Source: an uncultured Coriobacteriia bacterium (GTDB lineage Bacteria > Actinomycetota > Coriobacteriia > Coriobacteriales > QAMH01). From it: a stretch of 7,658 bases of DNA. The stretch's first letter is position 1, and the number at the start of each line of letters is the position of its first letter. Shown here piece by piece: positions 60 through 7,658 of the stretch. The stretch covers positions 1 to 7,658 of the forward strand of contig CASDTD010000045.1 of assembly GCA_949283445.1 (NCBI GenBank), read 5' to 3'. Below the pieces are notes generated by a model that saw only the letters and a list, made by a program, of their open reading frames with translations, did not search any database and was not told the DNA's origin. Position numbers and translations under genes: made by a program.

Positions 60-1781
60 ATGGCAGAAGAAGGGTCCATAATCGGCGGGAGATACCGCAT
101 CCTCGCCCAGATCGGCGAAGGCGGCATGTCCCGCGTCTATCTCGCCTTAGACACCGTACTGAACAAGCAGTGGGCGGCAAAGGAAATCAAGCACGTCGAA
201 GACGCGACACAGCGCGAGCTCATCATCCAATCGCTCGTGACCGAATCGAACATGATCAAGCGCTTCGACCACCCGGCCATTCCCCGTATCGTCGACATCG
301 TCGACAACGACGGCACGCTCTACGTCATCATGGACTACGTCGAGGGACGCACACTTGACGAAATACTCAAGCGCGAGGGGCCCCAAGCCGAAGACGACGT
401 CGTGGACTGGGGCGTGCAGCTGTGCGACGTCCTCGACTACCTGCACAACCGCACGCCTCCCGTCGTCTACCGCGACATGAAACCCAGCAACGTCATGCTC
501 AAGCCCAACGGTCTCGTGCAGCTCATCGACTTCGGCATCGCGCGCGAATACCGCGACGAAGGCGCCGTCACTGCAGCGATCGGCGACACGGTGCAGCTGG
601 GAACGCCGGGTTTCGCGCCTCCGGAACAATACGGCGGCAGCGGGCAGACCGACGCGCGCTCGGACATCTACGCTTTAGGCGCGACGATGTACTTTCTTCT
701 GACGGGCAACAACCCCGCAGAACCGCCCTACACCATCCTGCCTGTGCGCCAGGTCGTGCCCGACATCTCTCCCGGCCTGGAGCGCATCATCGCCAAAGCG
801 ACGCAACAAGACCCTGCCGACCGTTTTTCCAGCTGCGCCGAGATGGCTTACGAGCTCGAACACTACCACGAAGCCGATGGCGCGCACCGCCTTCAGCTCA
901 AACGCAAGTGGCATCTGTTCTTGGGCACCTGCATCGCCGCCGCGTGCTTTCTCGTGCTTGGCGTGAGCGGCACCGTCTTGCAGCAGGCCACGTTGTCCTC
1001 GGACTTCGACCACTGGATGACCGTGGGCAAACAGTCCTCCGACGAGACCGAAGCGGCCAAGGCCTATGCCCAGGCAGCCCAGATACGCCCCGGCAGCACC
1101 GAACCGTATATGGGCATGGCGGAGCTCTTCCGTACCGACCAGGCGTTCACGAGCAACGAGGAATACCTCATGCGCCAGTCCCTCCTGCCCCAGCTGGGCG
1201 CCTTCAAGCACGACGCGGCGTGGGCGGACATGTGCTTCACCATCGGCAAGCTCTACTGGTACAACTATCAGGTGGCCGAAGACGGGCAAAACGAGACTGC
1301 CTACGAGTCGGGCAGGTCGGAGCGCATCAGAGCGGCAAGCCAGTGGATGCGCGACGCCGCTTCCGTTGAAGGTTACGCAAACCACGAGCTCGCGCAGGCG
1401 TATGCCGATATCGCGGACTTCAACACCGACATCGTCCCCCTCATCAACGAGGGCTCCGATGCGGGACAGTACGCACCGTACTTCGAGAGACTCGACTACC
1501 TCGTGGGCGCGGTCGGCTCCGAAAACAACGATGTCATCAAGCTCGAGGCGGCAAACCTCGCGCTCGACGCGCTGACGACGTACCCGCGCAAGTTCCGGGC
1601 AGACGGCATCTCCCAAGATCGGCTGCTCGCTCTCGCCGACAAGGCGGTCGCCCTGGGGGTAGGCGTGCAACCAACCACGGCGCGTCTCGACGGCGAACAG
1701 CAGCGGGTAAAGAAACAGGCGCAATCGACGCGGGAGGCAATCGCGAACGCGTTCGTCGACATCGAGGGGAGCCGCGCATGA
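60..1781 (+). CDS. Membrane Ser/Thr protein kinase with outer TPR-like helical domain
   Basis: This 573-residue protein should phosphorylate Ser/Thr on target proteins using ATP at the inner face of the membrane. The kinase domain spans about residues 11-268: Gly-rich loop GEGGMSRV (19-26), ATP-anchoring Lys41 in AAKEI, helix-C Glu62, catalytic loop YRDMKPSN (137-144; Asp139, Lys141, Asn144), DFG (157-159), GTPGFAPPEQY (181-191), Asp202 and late Arg255. All catalytic residues are present, so it looks active. The HRD His is Tyr137, and APE reads PPE. Thr171, Thr177 and Thr182 in the activation loop are candidate autophosphorylation sites. After KRK (281-283) comes one membrane helix (about 286-306). 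Residues 308-573 lie outside; 332-357 resemble one TPR hairpin, and the rest is helix-rich with GKLYWYNYQ and a REAIANAF motif near the end. From memory, this outer domain recurs in clostridial kinases; there are no PASTA repeats. The stop overlaps the next start (ATGA), which suggests joint production with the small TTML protein, a likely substrate (inference). Ligand and targets are unknown. Confidence 0.96.
   Translation: MAEEGSIIGGRYRILAQIGEGGMSRVYLALDTVLNKQWAAKEIKHVEDATQRELIIQSLVTESNMIKRFDHPAIPRIVDIVDNDGTLYVIMDYVEGRTLDEILKREGPQAEDDVVDWGVQLCDVLDYLHNRTPPVVYRDMKPSNVMLKPNGLVQLIDFGIAREYRDEGAVTAAIGDTVQLGTPGFAPPEQYGGSGQTDARSDIYALGATMYFLLTGNNPAEPPYTILPVRQVVPDISPGLERIIAKATQQDPADRFSSCAEMAYELEHYHEADGAHRLQLKRKWHLFLGTCIAAACFLVLGVSGTVLQQATLSSDFDHWMTVGKQSSDETEAAKAYAQAAQIRPGSTEPYMGMAELFRTDQAFTSNEEYLMRQSLLPQLGAFKHDAAWADMCFTIGKLYWYNYQVAEDGQNETAYESGRSERIRAASQWMRDAASVEGYANHELAQAYADIADFNTDIVPLINEGSDAGQYAPYFERLDYLVGAVGSENNDVIKLEAANLALDALTTYPRKFRADGISQDRLLALADKAVALGVGVQPTTARLDGEQQRVKKQAQSTREAIANAFVDIEGSRA
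1764..1771 (+). promoter_or_regulatory. Ribosome-binding site of the TTML protein gene
   Basis: GAGGGGAG inside the kinase's last codons sits six bases before the ATG at 1778. Together with the ATGA overlap at 1778-1781 it supports this start and translational coupling to the kinase. Confidence 0.75.
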
Positions 1782-2314
1782 GTGCCGCAGCGTTCGGCTT
1801 GACGGCCATCATCTGCTATTCGCTGGCTGCGGTCTGCGTCGCCATCGCGGTCATCTTGTTCTTCGTCCTGCACATCCGCGACGTGTGCGACGACCTGACG
1901 GGACGCACCGCGCAACGCGCCATAGCGCAGCTGCGAAGCGGCAGCTCGAATCGTTCCAAGTTCTTCGGCGGAGAAGAGCGTGGGGCAGCTGCGAAAAATG
2001 CCGGCAAGCGCCGCTCGAGCCTGCAGAAAGACTCCAGCGGCAGCCTGAAACTCAGGCATTTCTCCAACGAGGACAACATACCCACGGCGCACATGGACGA
2101 AGACGCCGCGGCCACCACCATGCTCGGCGCGCAGGCAGATGAGGCCGATGCGATGCCCACTACTATGCTCGGCGCAGCAGACGGCACCGTCGAGGCGCCG
2201 TGCAGCGAAGACGATATGGCCACGACGATGCTTTCCGCAAGCGGTGCAGACCCCGAGGACAGCCTCTCGACGACGATGCTTTCCGCACCAGGCGGCAAAG
2301 GAGGCGCACGATGA
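1778..2314 (+). CDS. Small single-helix membrane protein with four TTML motifs, probable phospho-docking platform
   Basis: This 178-residue protein has no family name I can give with confidence. Residues 5-31 form one strong membrane helix with no charged residues before it. The next stretch (32-95) is basic and includes DLTGRTAQRAI (39-49), a motif I recall from small uncharacterised Gram-positive membrane proteins. By the positive-inside rule the C-terminus is cytoplasmic, on the kinase-domain side. Residues 96-170 are acidic, low in complexity and probably disordered, with Thr-Thr-Met-Leu at 113-116, 128-131, 149-152 and 165-168. Each copy follows Asp/Glu residues and is followed by Gly-Ala or Ser-Ala. 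Thr103 in NIPTAHMDED is another possible site. Paired Thr in an acidic setting suits bacterial Ser/Thr kinase substrates, and pThr-x-x-Leu suits FHA domains with an aliphatic +3 preference (known of FHA domains generally). The inferred role is a membrane platform phosphorylated by the kinase encoded just upstream. It overlaps both neighbours by four bases. There is no catalytic motif. Confidence 0.9.
   Translation: MSAAAFGLTAIICYSLAAVCVAIAVILFFVLHIRDVCDDLTGRTAQRAIAQLRSGSSNRSKFFGGEERGAAAKNAGKRRSSLQKDSSGSLKLRHFSNEDNIPTAHMDEDAAATTMLGAQADEADAMPTTMLGAADGTVEAPCSEDDMATTMLSASGADPEDSLSTTMLSAPGGKGGAR
2114..2281 (+). repeat. Four spaced TTML motifs in the small membrane protein
   Basis: Thr-Thr-Met-Leu is encoded at 2114-2125, 2159-2170, 2222-2233 and 2270-2281. 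Start-to-start spacing is 15, 21 and 16 residues. The Thr codon pairs are ACC ACC, ACT ACT, ACG ACG and ACG ACG, with Leu as CTC, CTC, CTT, CTT. The protein motif is therefore kept while the DNA differs. The linkers are not alike beyond acidic residues 3-8 positions before the motif and GA or SA after it. This looks like short linear motifs rather than a folded repeat. Confidence 0.9.
2297..2304 (+). promoter_or_regulatory. Ribosome-binding site of the giant surface protein gene
   Basis: AAAGGAGG, nearly a perfect Shine-Dalgarno sequence, lies six bases before the ATG at 2311, inside the last codons of the TTML gene. With the ATGA overlap at 2311-2314 it fixes the start of the giant gene and implies coupled but independently strong initiation. 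Confidence 0.85.
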
Positions 2315-2418
2315 GGCCACCACGCGTAAATGACAAGATCACGACGGGCGTCAGCGCAATCGTCGCGGTCTCGCTTGTCGCCAGCATGACCTTTCCGCTC
2401 ACGTCGACCGCCTATGCA
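2311..2418 (+). other. Signal peptide of the giant surface protein
   Basis: Residues 1-36 hold Arg2, Arg5 and Lys9, then a hydrophobic stretch (ITTGVSAIVAVSLVASMTF), then an Ala-x-Ala-like site at residues 34-36 (AYA) before Asp37. The length suits high-GC Gram-positive Sec substrates. There is no lipobox Cys and no twin-Arg motif. Confidence 0.85.
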
Positions 2419-5400
2419 GACGCCGCCAGCAGCTCGGACCGCACAGCGCCCTCGAACACATCAGATGAGCCTGCCAAGGCGATAGAGGGACAACTCTCCT
2501 TCGTCGAGCAGACCGTCTACATCCCCTACGGCGTCAATATCGACGAATGGCTCGCCAGGGCAGATGTCAAGATCCTGCAAGACGAAAGCGGCCAGCTGTT
2601 CAGCGCGAAAGAGCTGTCCTCCCTTTTCGAGAAAACGACGCCACCGCTCAGATACACGGGGCAAAGCTACCCTGCAGCCGACTTGGAAACGCCGCAAAGC
2701 ATATCGGGGCTGCTGCAGTGGGGCACGCTTGCCGCAGGCGCCCCAGACATCGAGCTGCCTGATCTGGCGACGCTGGATCTTCAGATGACCCAGCTCGCAA
2801 ATGAAGGCGCGAGCCTCCCTCTTGCCCCCGACATCGTCTGCACCCGGCTGCTGGCTATCACAGATGACAAGGGGGATGCCTCATGGCGCCTTGCTGGCTC
2901 GGCTGCCGAGGGAACCCGCAAGCTGTGGGTGAATGCAAACGACGCCGTGCAAGATGACGGCGTGAGCATCGCGGCATCGCAAAACAGCGAGCTGAAGGCC
3001 ACTGTCTCCCTCTTTGCATCTCTCGATGCGCAAGGGGCATTCTCCAATACAGAACCTGTCAAAGTGCGTGACGCGGGGTGCGTGTTCGTCAAGCTCCCCT
3101 GCGACGTGACGACTGTCGACAAGAACACGGGCAGGGAAACAACCCTGTGCAAGGGGCAGGTGGTACGGCTTCCCGTCGTATCCGACAAAACTTCCCCGGA
3201 AATCGGCGCTATAACCGTCAGCGGCGCCGACGGCACGCCGCTCGACCTTGCAAGCATGTGGACCGACGGCAACCGCCTGTCCGTGGGCAGCACTGGCATC
3301 ACCATCACAGCACCCATAACCGACGGAGCCGAAGACGGGCAAGCGGAGCCTTCGGGCATCGCAACGGTGCAGTTGCGCGTCGGCAAAGGTCAAAACGCCC
3401 CGCATTTCGACGCGACATCATTCGAAGACGGCGTCGCGCGCTTTGCCCTCGACATCGACACGCTTGGAGCAGAAGGCGTCTACGAACTTTCCCAGATGGC
3501 CATCGAGACAAGCGACGCCGCCGGAAACATCAGCTCCAAGACGCTCGCCCAGGCAAGCCCCCTGGCCGAAGCTGGCATCAAATTCGTGGAACTCATCGAC
3601 GAGCAGGCGGCGGACAACAAGCCGCAGGCTAGCATCGCTGCCACGTCGGTTGCAGGCGAAGACGACGGCGTGCAGTACGTGACCAGCGCGGGCGGGACGC
3701 ATGTGACCTTCCGCGTCCTCGACAAGCGCCTGTCGGATTTGCTGGCCAAGGAAAGCTGGCTTTCCAGCGAGCCTTTGAGCTACACGGTAAACGACGGCGA
3801 GAAGGTCCTCATCGATCCGAGCACGCTGCAGGTACTGGGAAGCGAGTCGAATCTCTACCAGAGCACGCAGGCACTCGACCTCGTCGAGGAAGGACGCTAT
3901 AAGATCGAATTCGACTACACGGGCGCCGCGCGCTATTTTATCGGCATCCCCATCGGCAGCTTCAAAGATTCGGCATCGGCAGACATCGTCGTCGACCGTA
4001 CCGCCCCACAGGTGAAAAGCGTCGAGCTGTCAAACGGCTATGACGAAGATGCAGAGCTCGCCCGTTCGCTCGAGCAGCTTGGCGGCGCCAATGCGCTCAT
4101 AGGCGCCGAACGCACCATCGACGTGCGCATCGACGACCTCCCCGGCTCTTCTGCCCCTGCAGGAGCAGAGACCTCCGGACTCTCGAGCGCGCGCATCGAG
4201 TGGGTGCGTCACGACCGTCTCGACGCAACTGACACCGGAAAGACGGAAAAGCGCGACGCCACGTCATCGGAGCTCAAAGACGAGGTGCTCCACATCAATC
4301 TGGACGAGCAGGGCATCTACCGTCTTTCGGACATCAACCTCGTCTTGCACGACAGTGCCGGCAACGAGCGCACCGTCAACTTGGCCGAGCACCTTTCCAC
4401 CCTGCCCGAAGAACAGCGCGCCTACTGGGATTTCTCGACAATCATCGTCGACGAAAACGACCAGGCGAAAACCGGTCTGTCCGTCTCTTCAGCAACCGAT
4501 GCGAAAGACCGCGCGGGAACGACGGTCTACGGCAAAGACGTGAACGTGACGGCCTGGATCGCGAACGACCCGCTCGCCTTCGTCTACGCGAAAACCGACG
4601 CGTTCAAGCGCAACATCGGCGTCTCCTTGAAGCCGGATGGTGTTAACACGCCTGCAGGAGAGCTGACCTTCGGTGAGATGACCTACGACGACGCGACAGG
4701 GCGCTGGGACCTTCCCCTCGGGTTGCCGAAAGACGCGCAGGGCGCCGTCCTCAACGGGCGCTACGAGCTCTCGTTTGCCTATCGAGACGTCGAGCCCGCA
4801 ACGCAGGACTTCATCGTCGACTCGCACGCGCCGCAGCTGACCGACGTCCGGCTGGAAGGTAGTGTAGACGAAAACGCCGACATCGCGCATCTCGGGTCGA
4901 GAAGCGTGCTCGTCGGAACAGAGCGCTCTATACGCGTGCGCGTGCAGGACCTCCTGGACGCCACGGACTCGTCCGGGAAGCGCGATCAGGAACACACGTC
5001 CGGCGTGAAGGCGGAACAGACGGGAACGGATGGCAGACCCCAAGGAGACGCGGTCGTCACGCTCAGCCTTTCCCGCACACCTTCTCTCAACCCCAGCGAC
5101 ACGCCCGAGAAGCTTTCCGACCGCATCATGTCGGTTGGAGAAGACGGCTGGACGACTATCGAGTTCGACGAGGCCGGCGTATACGACCTGAACGACATCG
5201 TGTTCACCGTCGAAGACAATGCGGGCAACACGGCACAGATTTCGCTGCGCGACTACATCGCGGCACTTCCGGCTGAGGAACGAGCCGCCTGGAACTTCGA
5301 TGCCATACTCGTGGATTCCGAGCAAAGCGCGTCCGAACGTTCCGTCAGCCTCACGGTTCAAGACGCCCCGGGTACCCCCGAAAGCGAAGATGCGGAAGGC

Positions 5401-7658
5401 TACTACCACCGAGGCACCGTCGACGTCGAAGTGTCTGTGCAAGACAGATGGTTCGAAGCGTACCGCGCGATTGCCAGCCGCCAGGAAGGCTTCTTCACCA
5501 TCAGCTGCATCACGGACGAGGGCACGGCGCTGGATGCCGAACAGCTGCCCGCCTTGAGCCCTGCCGACTTTACTTACGATGCGTCACGCGATGCATGGAC
5601 GGCAACGCTCAGAATCCGCTCTGCAGGTGCAGACCGCCCCGAAGAGGGGTCGTACGAGGTGAAAATCGATTACCAGGGCATCAGCGGAAGCTCCGCGCAG
5701 ACGCAAGCGGCCATGACGTTCGGCATCGACTACACGGCACCCGAATTCGGCGAGCTCGCGCTTTCCAAAACGTCGCCGCAGCGTTGGGGCTGGCTGTTCC
5801 CGCATGACGAGGAGACGTTGAGCGTCGAAGTGGCCGACAACTTCGCCGGTATCGAGCCCGCCGGTGCCGGCACGCTGCGCACGAAAGACGGTCAAAGTCA
5901 CACGACCGACCTTGATAACGGAAAGCTCTCGTTCACGTTCGACGACGACGCCGAACGTCTGAACTTCGACCAAGCGCGCATAACGGTGAAAGACCGTGCG
6001 GGCAACACGAGAGCCCTGGCAGACATCAAGACGTACGCCCACGGCAACATCCCCACGAACGCCGATGCCTTTTCCGTGGACGTGCACGCACCACGCATCG
6101 ACATTGCCTACGACAACGACGACGTGCGCAACGGCCGCTACTACAACGCGGCGCGGACAGCCACCATCACCGTCACGGAAGCCAATTTCGACCTGCTCAA
6201 AGCCCATGACCCCAAACGCGTCATCGCGAAAGCGAGCTGCGACGGCATCGAAGACGAACTGCGCGCAGAGGATTTCGAGAACCCGAGTAAAGACGGCGTG
6301 ACCTGGGTTTGCAGCTACACGTTCGAACGTGATGGCGACTGCACGCTCGACGCCTCGTTTTCCGACCCGGCAGGCCGGCCCTCAAACGTCGTCCACGACG
6401 AGTTCACCATCGACACCACCGCACCGGTCCTGCTGGTGACCTTCGACAACAACGAAGTTCAAAACGGCATGTACTACAAAGAACGCAGGACGGCATCGAT
6501 CGAAGTCAGCGAGAGGAATTTCGACACAGACCTGACCTCGATCGAGACGACGGCTGCAAACGGGAACGTGCCAGCTCCAACGGGCTGGAAAAGCGACGGG
6601 CGCAATGGGCACGTGAATTCTGTGCACTTCGGAGACGAGACCCATTACACGCTGCGTGTAAGCGTCACCGACTTGGCGGGAAACGAGGCAGACGTCTTCG
6701 AGGAACCCGAGTTCGTCATCGACCTGACCGCCCCTCAGGTAGCCATCGACGACGTTTCGAACAACACCGCCTACGCGGGAACCGTCGCACCGAGCATCGA
6801 CTATTCGGATCTGAACTTCGACCCGCTGGCCACGACTTACGAACTCGAAGGCGCGCGCCAGGGCATGGCGTTCATGGGCCAGCCGCATGAGACGCAAAAC
6901 GAGACGAGCAAGCATGTCCAGTTCGCCGATTTCGAACGCAGCATCGAGTTCGACGACGTCTACACGCTCACGGCGAAAGTGACCGACTTGGCGGGAAACG
7001 AGTCAACCGACACCGTGCGTTTTTCCGTCAACCGCTTCGGAAGCAATTACATACTCGTCGGCGCATCGAGAAACACGCCGGGAAGCTATCTTGACGAGGC
7101 GCGCGACCTGCAAATCGCCGAAATCAACGTGAGCGGCCTGCAGACGGGAAAGACCCACGCCGAACTCGTGCACGACTCGCGCACCGTCCGGCTTTCCCCC
7201 GAAGAGGACTACACAGCCAAAGCCGGCACGGCGCAAGGCTGGAGCGAGACGCTCTACACCTTCCCCGCACGGCTGTTCGACGCCGATGGCTACTATCGCG
7301 TGCTGCTCACCTCGCGCGACAGGGCAGGCAATCTCTCGCAGAACACGATGCCCGCAAAGGACGAGAAGCGCGAGGGAACGGCCGAGGTGAATTTCGCCAT
7401 CGACACGACGAGCCCGAGTTCGTCTGTCATCGGCATCGAGCCAGGCGGGGTGTATCTGCAACCCGAGATGCAAGTGGAGATCGACAGCCACGACAATCTT
7501 GCGGTGGAAAAGGCGCGCCTGCTCGTCGATGGCACCGAAGTCGCCAGCTGGAGCGGAGCGCAAGACGGTTCCGTCAGCGCGCAGCACACGCTCGTCGCCG
7601 ACGGAACGCCCCACACGATATCTCTGGAGACGACCGACCGCGCCGGAAACACCCGTAC
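2311..7658 (+). CDS. Giant secreted Ig-like repeat surface protein (partial, 3' end outside window)
   Basis: The frame is open from ATG 2311 to the last base, giving 1782 residues plus two bases with no stop. Residues 1-36 are a Sec signal peptide: basic N-terminus, hydrophobic core about 14-30, likely cut after TAYA (33-36). Residues 37-291 match nothing I know. Residues 292-1139 are three composite repeats, followed by at least six smaller Ig-like modules to the edge. Hallmarks are module-opening D-x-T-A/S-P sequences (292, 562, 837, 1140, 1257, 1368, 1471, 1698) and D-x-A-G-N turns (402, 681, 969, 1228, 1454, 1559, 1670, 1776), typical of bacterial Ig-like (Big_3-type) adhesin or stalk domains. 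No enzymatic motif is visible. A sorting signal or membrane anchor would be expected in the missing C-terminus. The likely role is an extended cell-surface stalk, adhesin or envelope component. It is translationally coupled to the TTML protein and kinase, so it may be their output or sensing partner (inference). The mature chain is strongly acidic. The Ig-like class is secure; the function is not. Confidence 0.93.
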   Translation, partial: MRPPRVNDKITTGVSAIVAVSLVASMTFPLTSTAYADAASSSDRTAPSNTSDEPAKAIEGQLSFVEQTVYIPYGVNIDEWLARADVKILQDESGQLFSAKELSSLFEKTTPPLRYTGQSYPAADLETPQSISGLLQWGTLAAGAPDIELPDLATLDLQMTQLANEGASLPLAPDIVCTRLLAITDDKGDASWRLAGSAAEGTRKLWVNANDAVQDDGVSIAASQNSELKATVSLFASLDAQGAFSNTEPVKVRDAGCVFVKLPCDVTTVDKNTGRETTLCKGQVVRLPVVSDKTSPEIGAITVSGADGTPLDLASMWTDGNRLSVGSTGITITAPITDGAEDGQAEPSGIATVQLRVGKGQNAPHFDATSFEDGVARFALDIDTLGAEGVYELSQMAIETSDAAGNISSKTLAQASPLAEAGIKFVELIDEQAADNKPQASIAATSVAGEDDGVQYVTSAGGTHVTFRVLDKRLSDLLAKESWLSSEPLSYTVNDGEKVLIDPSTLQVLGSESNLYQSTQALDLVEEGRYKIEFDYTGAARYFIGIPIGSFKDSASADIVVDRTAPQVKSVELSNGYDEDAELARSLEQLGGANALIGAERTIDVRIDDLPGSSAPAGAETSGLSSARIEWVRHDRLDATDTGKTEKRDATSSELKDEVLHINLDEQGIYRLSDINLVLHDSAGNERTVNLAEHLSTLPEEQRAYWDFSTIIVDENDQAKTGLSVSSATDAKDRAGTTVYGKDVNVTAWIANDPLAFVYAKTDAFKRNIGVSLKPDGVNTPAGELTFGEMTYDDATGRWDLPLGLPKDAQGAVLNGRYELSFAYRDVEPATQDFIVDSHAPQLTDVRLEGSVDENADIAHLGSRSVLVGTERSIRVRVQDLLDATDSSGKRDQEHTSGVKAEQTGTDGRPQGDAVVTLSLSRTPSLNPSDTPEKLSDRIMSVGEDGWTTIEFDEAGVYDLNDIVFTVEDNAGNTAQISLRDYIAALPAEERAAWNFDAILVDSEQSASERSVSLTVQDAPGTPESEDAEGYYHRGTVDVEVSVQDRWFEAYRAIASRQEGFFTISCITDEGTALDAEQLPALSPADFTYDASRDAWTATLRIRSAGADRPEEGSYEVKIDYQGISGSSAQTQAAMTFGIDYTAPEFGELALSKTSPQRWGWLFPHDEETLSVEVADNFAGIEPAGAGTLRTKDGQSHTTDLDNGKLSFTFDDDAERLNFDQARITVKDRAGNTRALADIKTYAHGNIPTNADAFSVDVHAPRIDIAYDNDDVRNGRYYNAARTATITVTEANFDLLKAHDPKRVIAKASCDGIEDELRAEDFENPSKDGVTWVCSYTFERDGDCTLDASFSDPAGRPSNVVHDEFTIDTTAPVLLVTFDNNEVQNGMYYKERRTASIEVSERNFDTDLTSIETTAANGNVPAPTGWKSDGRNGHVNSVHFGDETHYTLRVSVTDLAGNEADVFEEPEFVIDLTAPQVAIDDVSNNTAYAGTVAPSIDYSDLNFDPLATTYELEGARQGMAFMGQPHETQNETSKHVQFADFERSIEFDDVYTLTAKVTDLAGNESTDTVRFSVNRFGSNYILVGASRNTPGSYLDEARDLQIAEINVSGLQTGKTHAELVHDSRTVRLSPEEDYTAKAGTAQGWSETLYTFPARLFDADGYYRVLLTSRDRAGNLSQNTMPAKDEKREGTAEVNFAIDTTSPSSSVIGIEPGGVYLQPEMQVEIDSHDNLAVEKARLLVDGTEVASWSGAQDGSVSAQHTLVADGTPHTISLETTDRAGNTR
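2419..3183 (+). other. Unrecognised N-terminal region of the giant surface protein
   Basis: Residues 37-291 lie between the signal peptide and the first D-x-T-S-P module start. A Ser/Thr-rich stretch (40-60) comes first, then mixed sequence with Trp106-type hydrophobic patches and no D-x-A-G-N turn. It holds four Cys (177, 257, 264, 280), half of all Cys seen in the mature protein, so disulfides are possible. Being the most distal part of a stalk anchored at its C-terminus, it is the natural candidate for a binding head (inference). Confidence 0.5.
3184..5727 (+). repeat. Three tandem composite protein repeats of about 270-303 residues
   Basis: Units are residues 292-561, 562-836 and 837-1139. 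In order, each has: D-x-x-S/A-P; a Thr/Glu-Ser-Gly loop; G-V/I-Y followed by a strand ending in D-x-A-G-N (402-406, 681-685, 969-973); a short link ending in V/I-D-E/S-type residues; a second beta-rich half; and a closing G-x-Y strand (EGRYKIEFDY 527-536, NGRYELSFAY 815-824, EGSYEVKIDY 1112-1121). Units 2 and 3 are closest and share LPxExRAxWxFxxIxVD (698-714 and 986-1002). Unit 1 has diverged and lacks that Trp motif. Each unit probably contains two Ig-like sandwiches. DNA identity is low, so the duplications are old. Confidence 0.8.
5728..7658 (+). repeat. Run of single Ig-like modules in the giant surface protein
   Basis: Module starts are residues 1140, 1257, 1368, 1471, about 1575 and 1698, giving lengths of about 117, 111, 103, 104 and 123, with the last one cut by the window edge. 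Modules 1257 and 1368 share a signature: N-G-x-Y-Y, then R-T-A-x-I-x-V, then x-x-x-NFD (NFD at 1292-1294 and 1403-1405). Module 1471 keeps NFD at 1502-1504 but lacks the Tyr-Tyr. The 1575 module opens with NRFGSNYIL and contains EINVSGL, a pattern I recall from clostridial surface proteins. D-x-A-G-N closes most modules; in module 1257 it reads DPAGR (1352-1356). Confidence 0.82.
6667..7002 (+). repeat. 21-base exact direct repeat encoding TDLAGNE
   Basis: Bases 6667-6687 and 6982-7002 are identical over 21 bases, including a TTG Leu codon, and encode TDLAGNE in neighbouring Ig-like modules. The offset of 315 bases equals one 105-residue module. The flanking DNA differs. Confidence 0.85.

Follow-up and report, generated by a model that had tools for sequence, protein, structure and literature searches.

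Gene content of the locus

The stretch of DNA analyzed here (the window; 7,658 nt) carries three overlapping genes on the forward strand, encoding a kinase, a small tail protein, and a large Ig-repeat protein. The features discussed below are located as follows.

60..1781, + strand: tsdD-type Ser/Thr kinase, 573 aa (Pkinase match, 4.3e-44; Lys, Glu, catalytic Asp, and DFG present)
585..605, + strand: activation-loop segment DTVQLGT of the kinase, which fits the T-x-x-L-G of the tail (alignment; coordinates counted from the sequence)
1778..2314, + strand: tsdH-type tail protein, 178 aa (family searches and the TsdH description in PMC11217815)
1808..1864, + strand: core of a single transmembrane helix, residues 11-29 (hydropathy peak; AlphaFold2 helix 3-40)
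1892..1921, + strand: juxtamembrane signature at residues 39-48, DLTGRTAQRA, where conservation across the family is highest
2114..2125, + strand: TTML copy 1, candidate phospho-Thr113, with Leu at +3 (sequence; alignment to relative P0002)
2159..2170, + strand: TTML copy 2, candidate phospho-Thr128 (same basis)
2222..2233, + strand: TTML copy 3, candidate phospho-Thr149 (same basis)
2270..2281, + strand: TTML copy 4, candidate phospho-Thr165 (same basis)
2311..7658, + strand: tsdI-type envelope protein, large and with Ig repeats, truncated at the end of the window (Big_13 match, 5e-19)

The original prediction placed the tail gene directly after a Ser/Thr kinase gene, and this is the arrangement found: the two genes (60-1781 and 1778-2314) overlap by an ATGA, and a second ATGA joins the tail gene to the Ig-repeat gene. 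The kinase has an N-terminal Hanks domain and, by eye, one helix; we infer that its C-terminal segment lies outside the cell. Besides the catalytic residues listed above, it has the Gly-loop and the activation-loop Thr of a Hanks kinase. PADLOC matches to PD-T4-6 and MAD6, among the rows listed, span the kinase domain and look generic, and assignment as a phage-defense kinase was rejected. The window search assigned no Pfam or PADLOC family to the tail protein, and its single NCBIfam match (E = 0.057) did not pass the cut-off. The Ig-repeat protein matches a homolog from Olsenella profusa at 6e-145.

Garrett, Higginson, and Palmer (2024, PMC11217815) described a T7SSd whose core comprises TsdA (WXG100), TsdC (an ATPase with FHA), TsdD (a kinase), TsdH, and TsdI (Ig-like). 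According to that description, TsdH has one helix and a short unstructured cytoplasmic region, the pThr-binding consensus of TsdC appears well conserved, and threonine phosphorylation may control the system, as its authors suggest; the portion of the text drawn on here names neither a TsdD substrate nor a TsdH repeat motif. Among the matches listed in our literature search, it was the sole paper using the term T7SSd. Judged by sequence, the window covers tsdD, tsdH, and tsdI of a T7SSd-type operon, three of the five core parts, probably from a member of the Coriobacteriia, and the published description matches it in the one-helix protein with a short tail, the membrane kinase, and the Ig-repeat protein. 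The three genes lie together in the window and keep the same order in the Olsenella loci L001 and L002; tsdC is absent from the 7,658-nt window.

Topology and disorder of the tail protein

The tail protein had been predicted to be a one-helix membrane protein with an acidic tail on the cytoplasmic side. The one helix and the acidic tail, which is also disordered, were borne out, and the cytoplasmic placement was supported. Hydropathy peaks at residues 11-29, and AlphaFold2 places a confident helix at residues 3-40 in a model with a mean pLDDT of 60.7 and a pTM of 0.28; beyond residue 100 the model has neither helix nor strand, and block-mean pLDDT stays in the range 44-52. In the window protein, no charge precedes the helix and the 30 residues after it carry +5/-3. 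Likewise, in all 23 scored sequences the 30 residues that follow the helix hold more Lys plus Arg than the stretch of up to 15 residues that precedes it. Since these flanking charges fit the positive-inside rule, topology signals point to a tail on the cytoplasmic side, the side expected for the kinase domain. By its charges and its AlphaFold2 model, the window protein has the one helix and the short unstructured cytoplasmic region described for TsdH.

The TTML array in the window protein

Four TTML copies are indeed present, beginning at residues 113, 128, 149, and 165; their spacings of 15, 21, and 16 residues fall in the predicted range (15-21), and Leu stands at +3 from the first Thr in all four, as claimed. 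Asp or Glu had also been placed before each copy; these residues are found at -3 and further upstream, and at -1 the window has A, P, A, and S. When residues 61-178 were shuffled by composition, any 4-mer appeared four times in 5 of 20,000 shuffles. The Thr-Thr codons vary among the copies (ACCACC, ACTACT, and ACGACG twice). Duplication is the probable origin of part of the array, because the DNA of copies 3 and 4 is identical over 18 nt and that of copies 1 and 2 agrees at 89% over 19 nt.

Distribution of the tail protein family

A single-sequence search returned two relatives besides the window's own protein, and a profile search returned 284 proteins, of which the 120 listed were used. Whole-genome searches covered two classes. 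In the one that includes the Rubneribacter genome G004, which we take to be Coriobacteriia, the tail protein was found in 13 of 296 genomes; in the one that includes the Lachnospiraceae MAG G003, presumably Clostridia, it was found in 11 of 391. Two marginal matches, one per class (G169 and G594, both E = 6.9e-4), were left out; the 13 Coriobacteriia genomes considered below are 12 from the class search plus G002. The tail protein is a patchy trait, since a phylum-wide search found it in G004 alone (1 of 396) and a family-level search in G004 and G297 alone (2 of 138). Relatives carrying the array come from two bacterial phyla.

We assembled 24 loci, comprising the window, L001 to L004, and 19 further genomes. 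All 24 have a kinase homolog immediately upstream of the tail gene. In 17 loci the tail gene is followed, at a distance of no more than about 2.1 kb, by an Ig-repeat homolog, and in two (L066 and L067) such a homolog lies upstream of the kinase; in five (L056, L061, L062, L068, and L069), some near contig ends, none was found. Named Bifidobacterium kinases that are 53-55% identical also exist; these are kinase matches only.

Conservation of the repeat

The array statistics drew on 144 sequences (the 120 proteins and the 24 loci), of which 8 without a juxtamembrane anchor were dropped; 43 non-redundant tails, at most 60% identical, were kept. In these, we counted 163 copies of T-x-[VMLI]-L, compared with a mean of 8.3 and a maximum of 21 in 1000 shuffles, and at least one copy is present in 41 tails, at least two in 33, and at least three in 29, frequencies that are biased upwards because the search profile includes the array. 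S-x-[VMLI]-L occurs once, despite 594 Ser vs 654 Thr residues in the tails, and [V/A]-x-[VMLI]-L also occurs once. When all Thr residues were considered, with no motif presupposed, Leu at +3 was the top enrichment (4.93-fold) and Val at +2 came next (3.31-fold), among the six commonest residues listed per offset. Acidic residues occupy 40% of positions at -4, 51% at -3, and 53% at -1 from the motif Thr, and the +1 residue is T (49), D (35), E (30), or S (16). In its Thr rather than Ser and its hydrophobic +3 residue, the tail motif has the features of an FHA ligand of the pTxxL type: FHA domains select pThr over pSer (PMC3146460), and the pT+3 residue matters for FHA choice (PMC5549992).

Within the 24 loci we counted 61 Thr motifs against two Ser motifs, both of the latter in L056. 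Copy number ranges from 0 to 8, and 14 tails have at least two copies. Homologs without the motif, which the original prediction had held to count against it, do occur, at three loci (L003, L057, and L058), and the other 21 tails have at least one copy. The further expectation that TT[MV]L is conserved while the linkers drift was largely borne out. When the window protein is compared with its 61% identical relative P0002, all 4 copies retain the first Thr and the +3 Leu, 3 retain the second Thr, and 2 the Met, and 25 of 68 linker residues (37%) are identical; across relatives the second Thr varies among T, D, E, and S. The idea that both Thr residues of TTML are essential was rejected on that ground.

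Three extra loci were fetched by their kinases. One of them, L091, the second locus of G611, has five T-E-x-L repeats; in the other two, L090 (whose tail was recognized by eye) and L092, the motif was not found. Loci L057, L058, L090, and L092, two each from genomes G248 and G289, make up a divergent subgroup without T-x-[VMLI]-L. In L057 and L058, Thr residues occur in acidic settings instead (e.g., PTLV, PTQV, and ETVL), perhaps reflecting a different FHA preference.

The kinase activation loop

Lys, Glu, the catalytic Asp, and DFG are present in all 23 aligned tail-linked kinases; L052, which has a broken frame, was left out of this judgment. The activation loop reads D-T-x-x-[LI]-G-T in 16 of the 23 (for example, GDTTMLGT and ADTTCLGT, with GDTVQLGT in the window), a pattern that resembles the tail repeat, and does not in 7. 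This loop was not found in 20 control kinases, namely the best-scoring kinase from each of 20 genomes out of 88 non-tail kinases in all. The tail repeat also fits the published Mycobacterium tuberculosis kinase motif, given as four acidic residues, T, X, X/V, and a large hydrophobic residue (PMC6888350).

The Olsenella-type kinases of L001, L002, L050, and L051 have no Thr at the usual place in the activation loop and have YCD for YRD, with Cys replacing the HRD Arg, as if they were freed from activation-loop control. The array is not a mere by-product of the loop, since the tails of these four loci keep one to six repeats. In L052 (G230), two in-frame stops break the kinase frame, and three repeats are retained in the tail.

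FHA and PP2C genes near the tail gene

A search of the flanking genome for FHA and PP2C genes had been among the proposed checks. Of 23 tail loci, 18 have an FHA gene within 15 kb, compared with 45 of 88 other kinases, a modest enrichment (Fisher p = 0.03). PP2C genes are present near 14 of the 23 but are not enriched, since 52 of the 88 other kinases of the same genomes also have one nearby. In Coriobacteriia, an FHA gene lies within 15 kb of 13 of 13 tail kinases and 42 of 61 others; in Clostridia, the counts are 5 of 10 and 3 of 27. The FHA neighborhood was rejected as proof given the high background in Coriobacteriia, and taken alone it is weak because FHA genes also lie near about half of the other kinases. 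No FHA gene was found within 15 kb of five Clostridia tails. The possibility that motif loss tracks FHA loss was likewise rejected: four of these five tails hold 1-3 motifs, and the fifth, from G003, has no motif and lies near a contig end. The FHA protein nearby is often the secretion ATPase itself.

We read 23 FHA domains by eye, with the aid of a single-sequence model. Ser-x-x-His is present in all 23 (the domains were located by that pattern), Asn in 22, and Arg in 11. The Arg of the Gly-Arg pair occurs in 5 of 9 TsdC-type and 6 of 14 J-like domains, and the others have IGG, IGS, LGS, or GK. By sequence, the TsdC-type FHA of L002 is closest to GarA among solved structures, and these structures include a pThr22 form of GarA (Rv1827). 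Six of 14 J-like ORFs carry an ETTVL-like motif at a distance of 48-69 residues ahead of the FHA Ser-x-x-His, an arrangement that may parallel the N-terminal phosphosite of GarA. A structure of Rad53 FHA2 with pTXXL has reportedly been solved as well.

FHA proteins near the kinase were recorded at L001:6762-7922, L002:6590-8023, L004:6496-7770 (minus strand), L051:6634-7794, and L057:13493-14404 (minus strand); that of L002 matches FHA at 2e-12 and DUF6382 merely at E = 0.045. J-like FHA proteins are present in T7SSd-type loci, and the portion of PMC11217815 drawn on here lists no J component for T7SSd.

Association with secretion ATPases

Of the 13 Coriobacteriia genomes examined, 11 encode an EssC-type ATPase no farther than 13 kb from the tail gene; it was not found in the other two, G297 and G291. 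At all nine related loci checked, the ATPase gene has close to it a W-x-G ORF of one type, recognized by eye and similar to the WXG100 protein TsdA. This gene content agrees with the published definition of the T7SSd. Among 10 Clostridia genomes, one (G611) has EssC close to the tail gene and five have it elsewhere; in G003, G385, G317, and G505, the search for EssC gave FtsK-level matches only. All four encode the kinase and the tail protein in a genome with no recognizable EssC, and in G385, G317, and G505 FHA and PP2C genes lie close by. These four genomes suggest use of the kinase-tail pair outside the T7SS, or incomplete assemblies.

Mbeg1-like proteins are encoded beside the T7SSd-type locus of L001 (4243-5802 and 15592-17313; PF11187 matched in both copies) and also in L004, L050, L051, and L057. 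They may be secreted substrates.

A candidate phospho-scaffold and its alternatives

The tail is a conserved repeat array, a feature new relative to the published TsdH description. We put at roughly two in three the probability that TsdH is a membrane phospho-scaffold, in which TsdD would phosphorylate the repeats and the FHA of TsdC and/or a J adaptor would dock on them. Within the disordered tail on the cytoplasmic side, the kinase would modify the leading Thr of every T-x-[V/M/L]-L repeat, and each pThr with Leu at +3 would dock an FHA domain, either that of TsdC and/or, where present, that of a J-type, DUF6382-like adaptor. With several sites per tail, one TsdH or a TsdH cluster could bring multiple FHA modules together at the membrane, and assembly or activity of the secretion complex would thereby follow kinase activity; where encoded, PP2C would reset tail phosphorylation. 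The sequences show the array and its conservation, the operon context, the topology signals, the catalytic residues of the kinase, and the match to its loop; from these we infer phosphorylation, FHA binding, and the effect on secretion alike. At the level of sequence, the checks mostly favor the original prediction of a kinase phosphorylating the array and thereby recruiting FHA proteins, which is supported to that extent.

The repeats could instead be phosphorylated and act by negative charge, causing detachment or a conformational change near the membrane with no FHA reader. This is unlikely, if the strongest of the competing explanations. The motif agrees with the mycobacterial kinase consensus as well as with the loop of the kinase itself, no FHA gene lies within 15 kb of five Clostridia tails, and several FHA domains lack the canonical Arg, all of which a charge effect would accommodate. 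Such an effect should, however, tolerate Ser, which takes the place of the motif Thr once against 163 times, and charge alone does not need Leu at +3. A Thr-preferring kinase could also account for the avoidance of Ser and the kept Leu. Slightly less probable again is that the tail mimics the activation loop and tethers or inhibits the kinase as a docking or pseudosubstrate array, not via FHA proteins. The occurrence of D-T-T-x-L-G in several loops and of [DE]-T-T-x-L-G in many tails agrees with this, as does the kinase gene directly upstream in 24 of 24 loci, but the Olsenella-type tails keep their repeats beside YCD kinases without a loop Thr, and the same motif appears near FHA domains in J-like proteins.

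Finally, the repeats might be a drifting low-complexity expansion without function, as the identity of copies 3 and 4 and the spread of copy number among loci would allow. We consider this very improbable: the motif is about 20 times as frequent as the shuffled expectation in the 43 tails, it is kept while linker identity falls to 37% between the window protein and P0002, and the Thr codons differ among the copies.

A broader proposal can also be made, which we advance tentatively and hold at somewhat less than even odds. TsdH/TseH-type proteins may serve as dedicated multivalent phospho-Thr receptors, to which secretion ATPases would be held through their FHA domains; the kinase would write the D/E-T-x-x-L-G mark of its own loop on the array, and the activated kinase, the J adaptor, and the ATPase FHA domains would share one code and compete for it.

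Comparison with known systems and implications

Our literature search found no phospho-scaffold switch for a type VII system. The nearest solved FHA to the L002 TsdC type, GarA, offers one parallel: in work attributed to Villarino in 2005, this FHA protein is said to be recruited by PknB via the kinase activation loop. GarA and OdhI are soluble metabolic regulators, whereas TsdH would present a membrane-tethered multisite array.

A second parallel, of mechanism only, is the threonine phosphorylation pathway of the T6SS (PpkA / TssL or Fha1 / Fha / PppA). There, a membrane-linked kinase, a phospho-Thr machine part, an FHA reader, and a phosphatase control secretion, and in Agrobacterium, Fha binds pThr14 of TssL (PMC3953482). 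PpkA, phospho-TssL, and Fha are a working precedent for the TsdD-TsdH-FHA scheme (PMC3953482), although the machine and envelope are unrelated and the one reported TssL site contrasts with a repeated array on a dedicated tail. In the T7SSb, the FHA domains of EssC lack pThr residues and searches for their partners failed (PMC4925161, PMC11217815); that system has the pseudokinase EssB, unlike the T7SSd, whose kinase has intact catalytic residues.

For the little-studied T7SSd, the array is a precise candidate for the missing kinase substrate. It is also a candidate ligand for the FHA domains of T7SS ATPases, a class for which T7SSb partner searches came up empty (PMC4925161). T-x-[VML]-L arrays behind a DLTGRTA helix provide a search code for such tails in Coriobacteriia and Clostridia.
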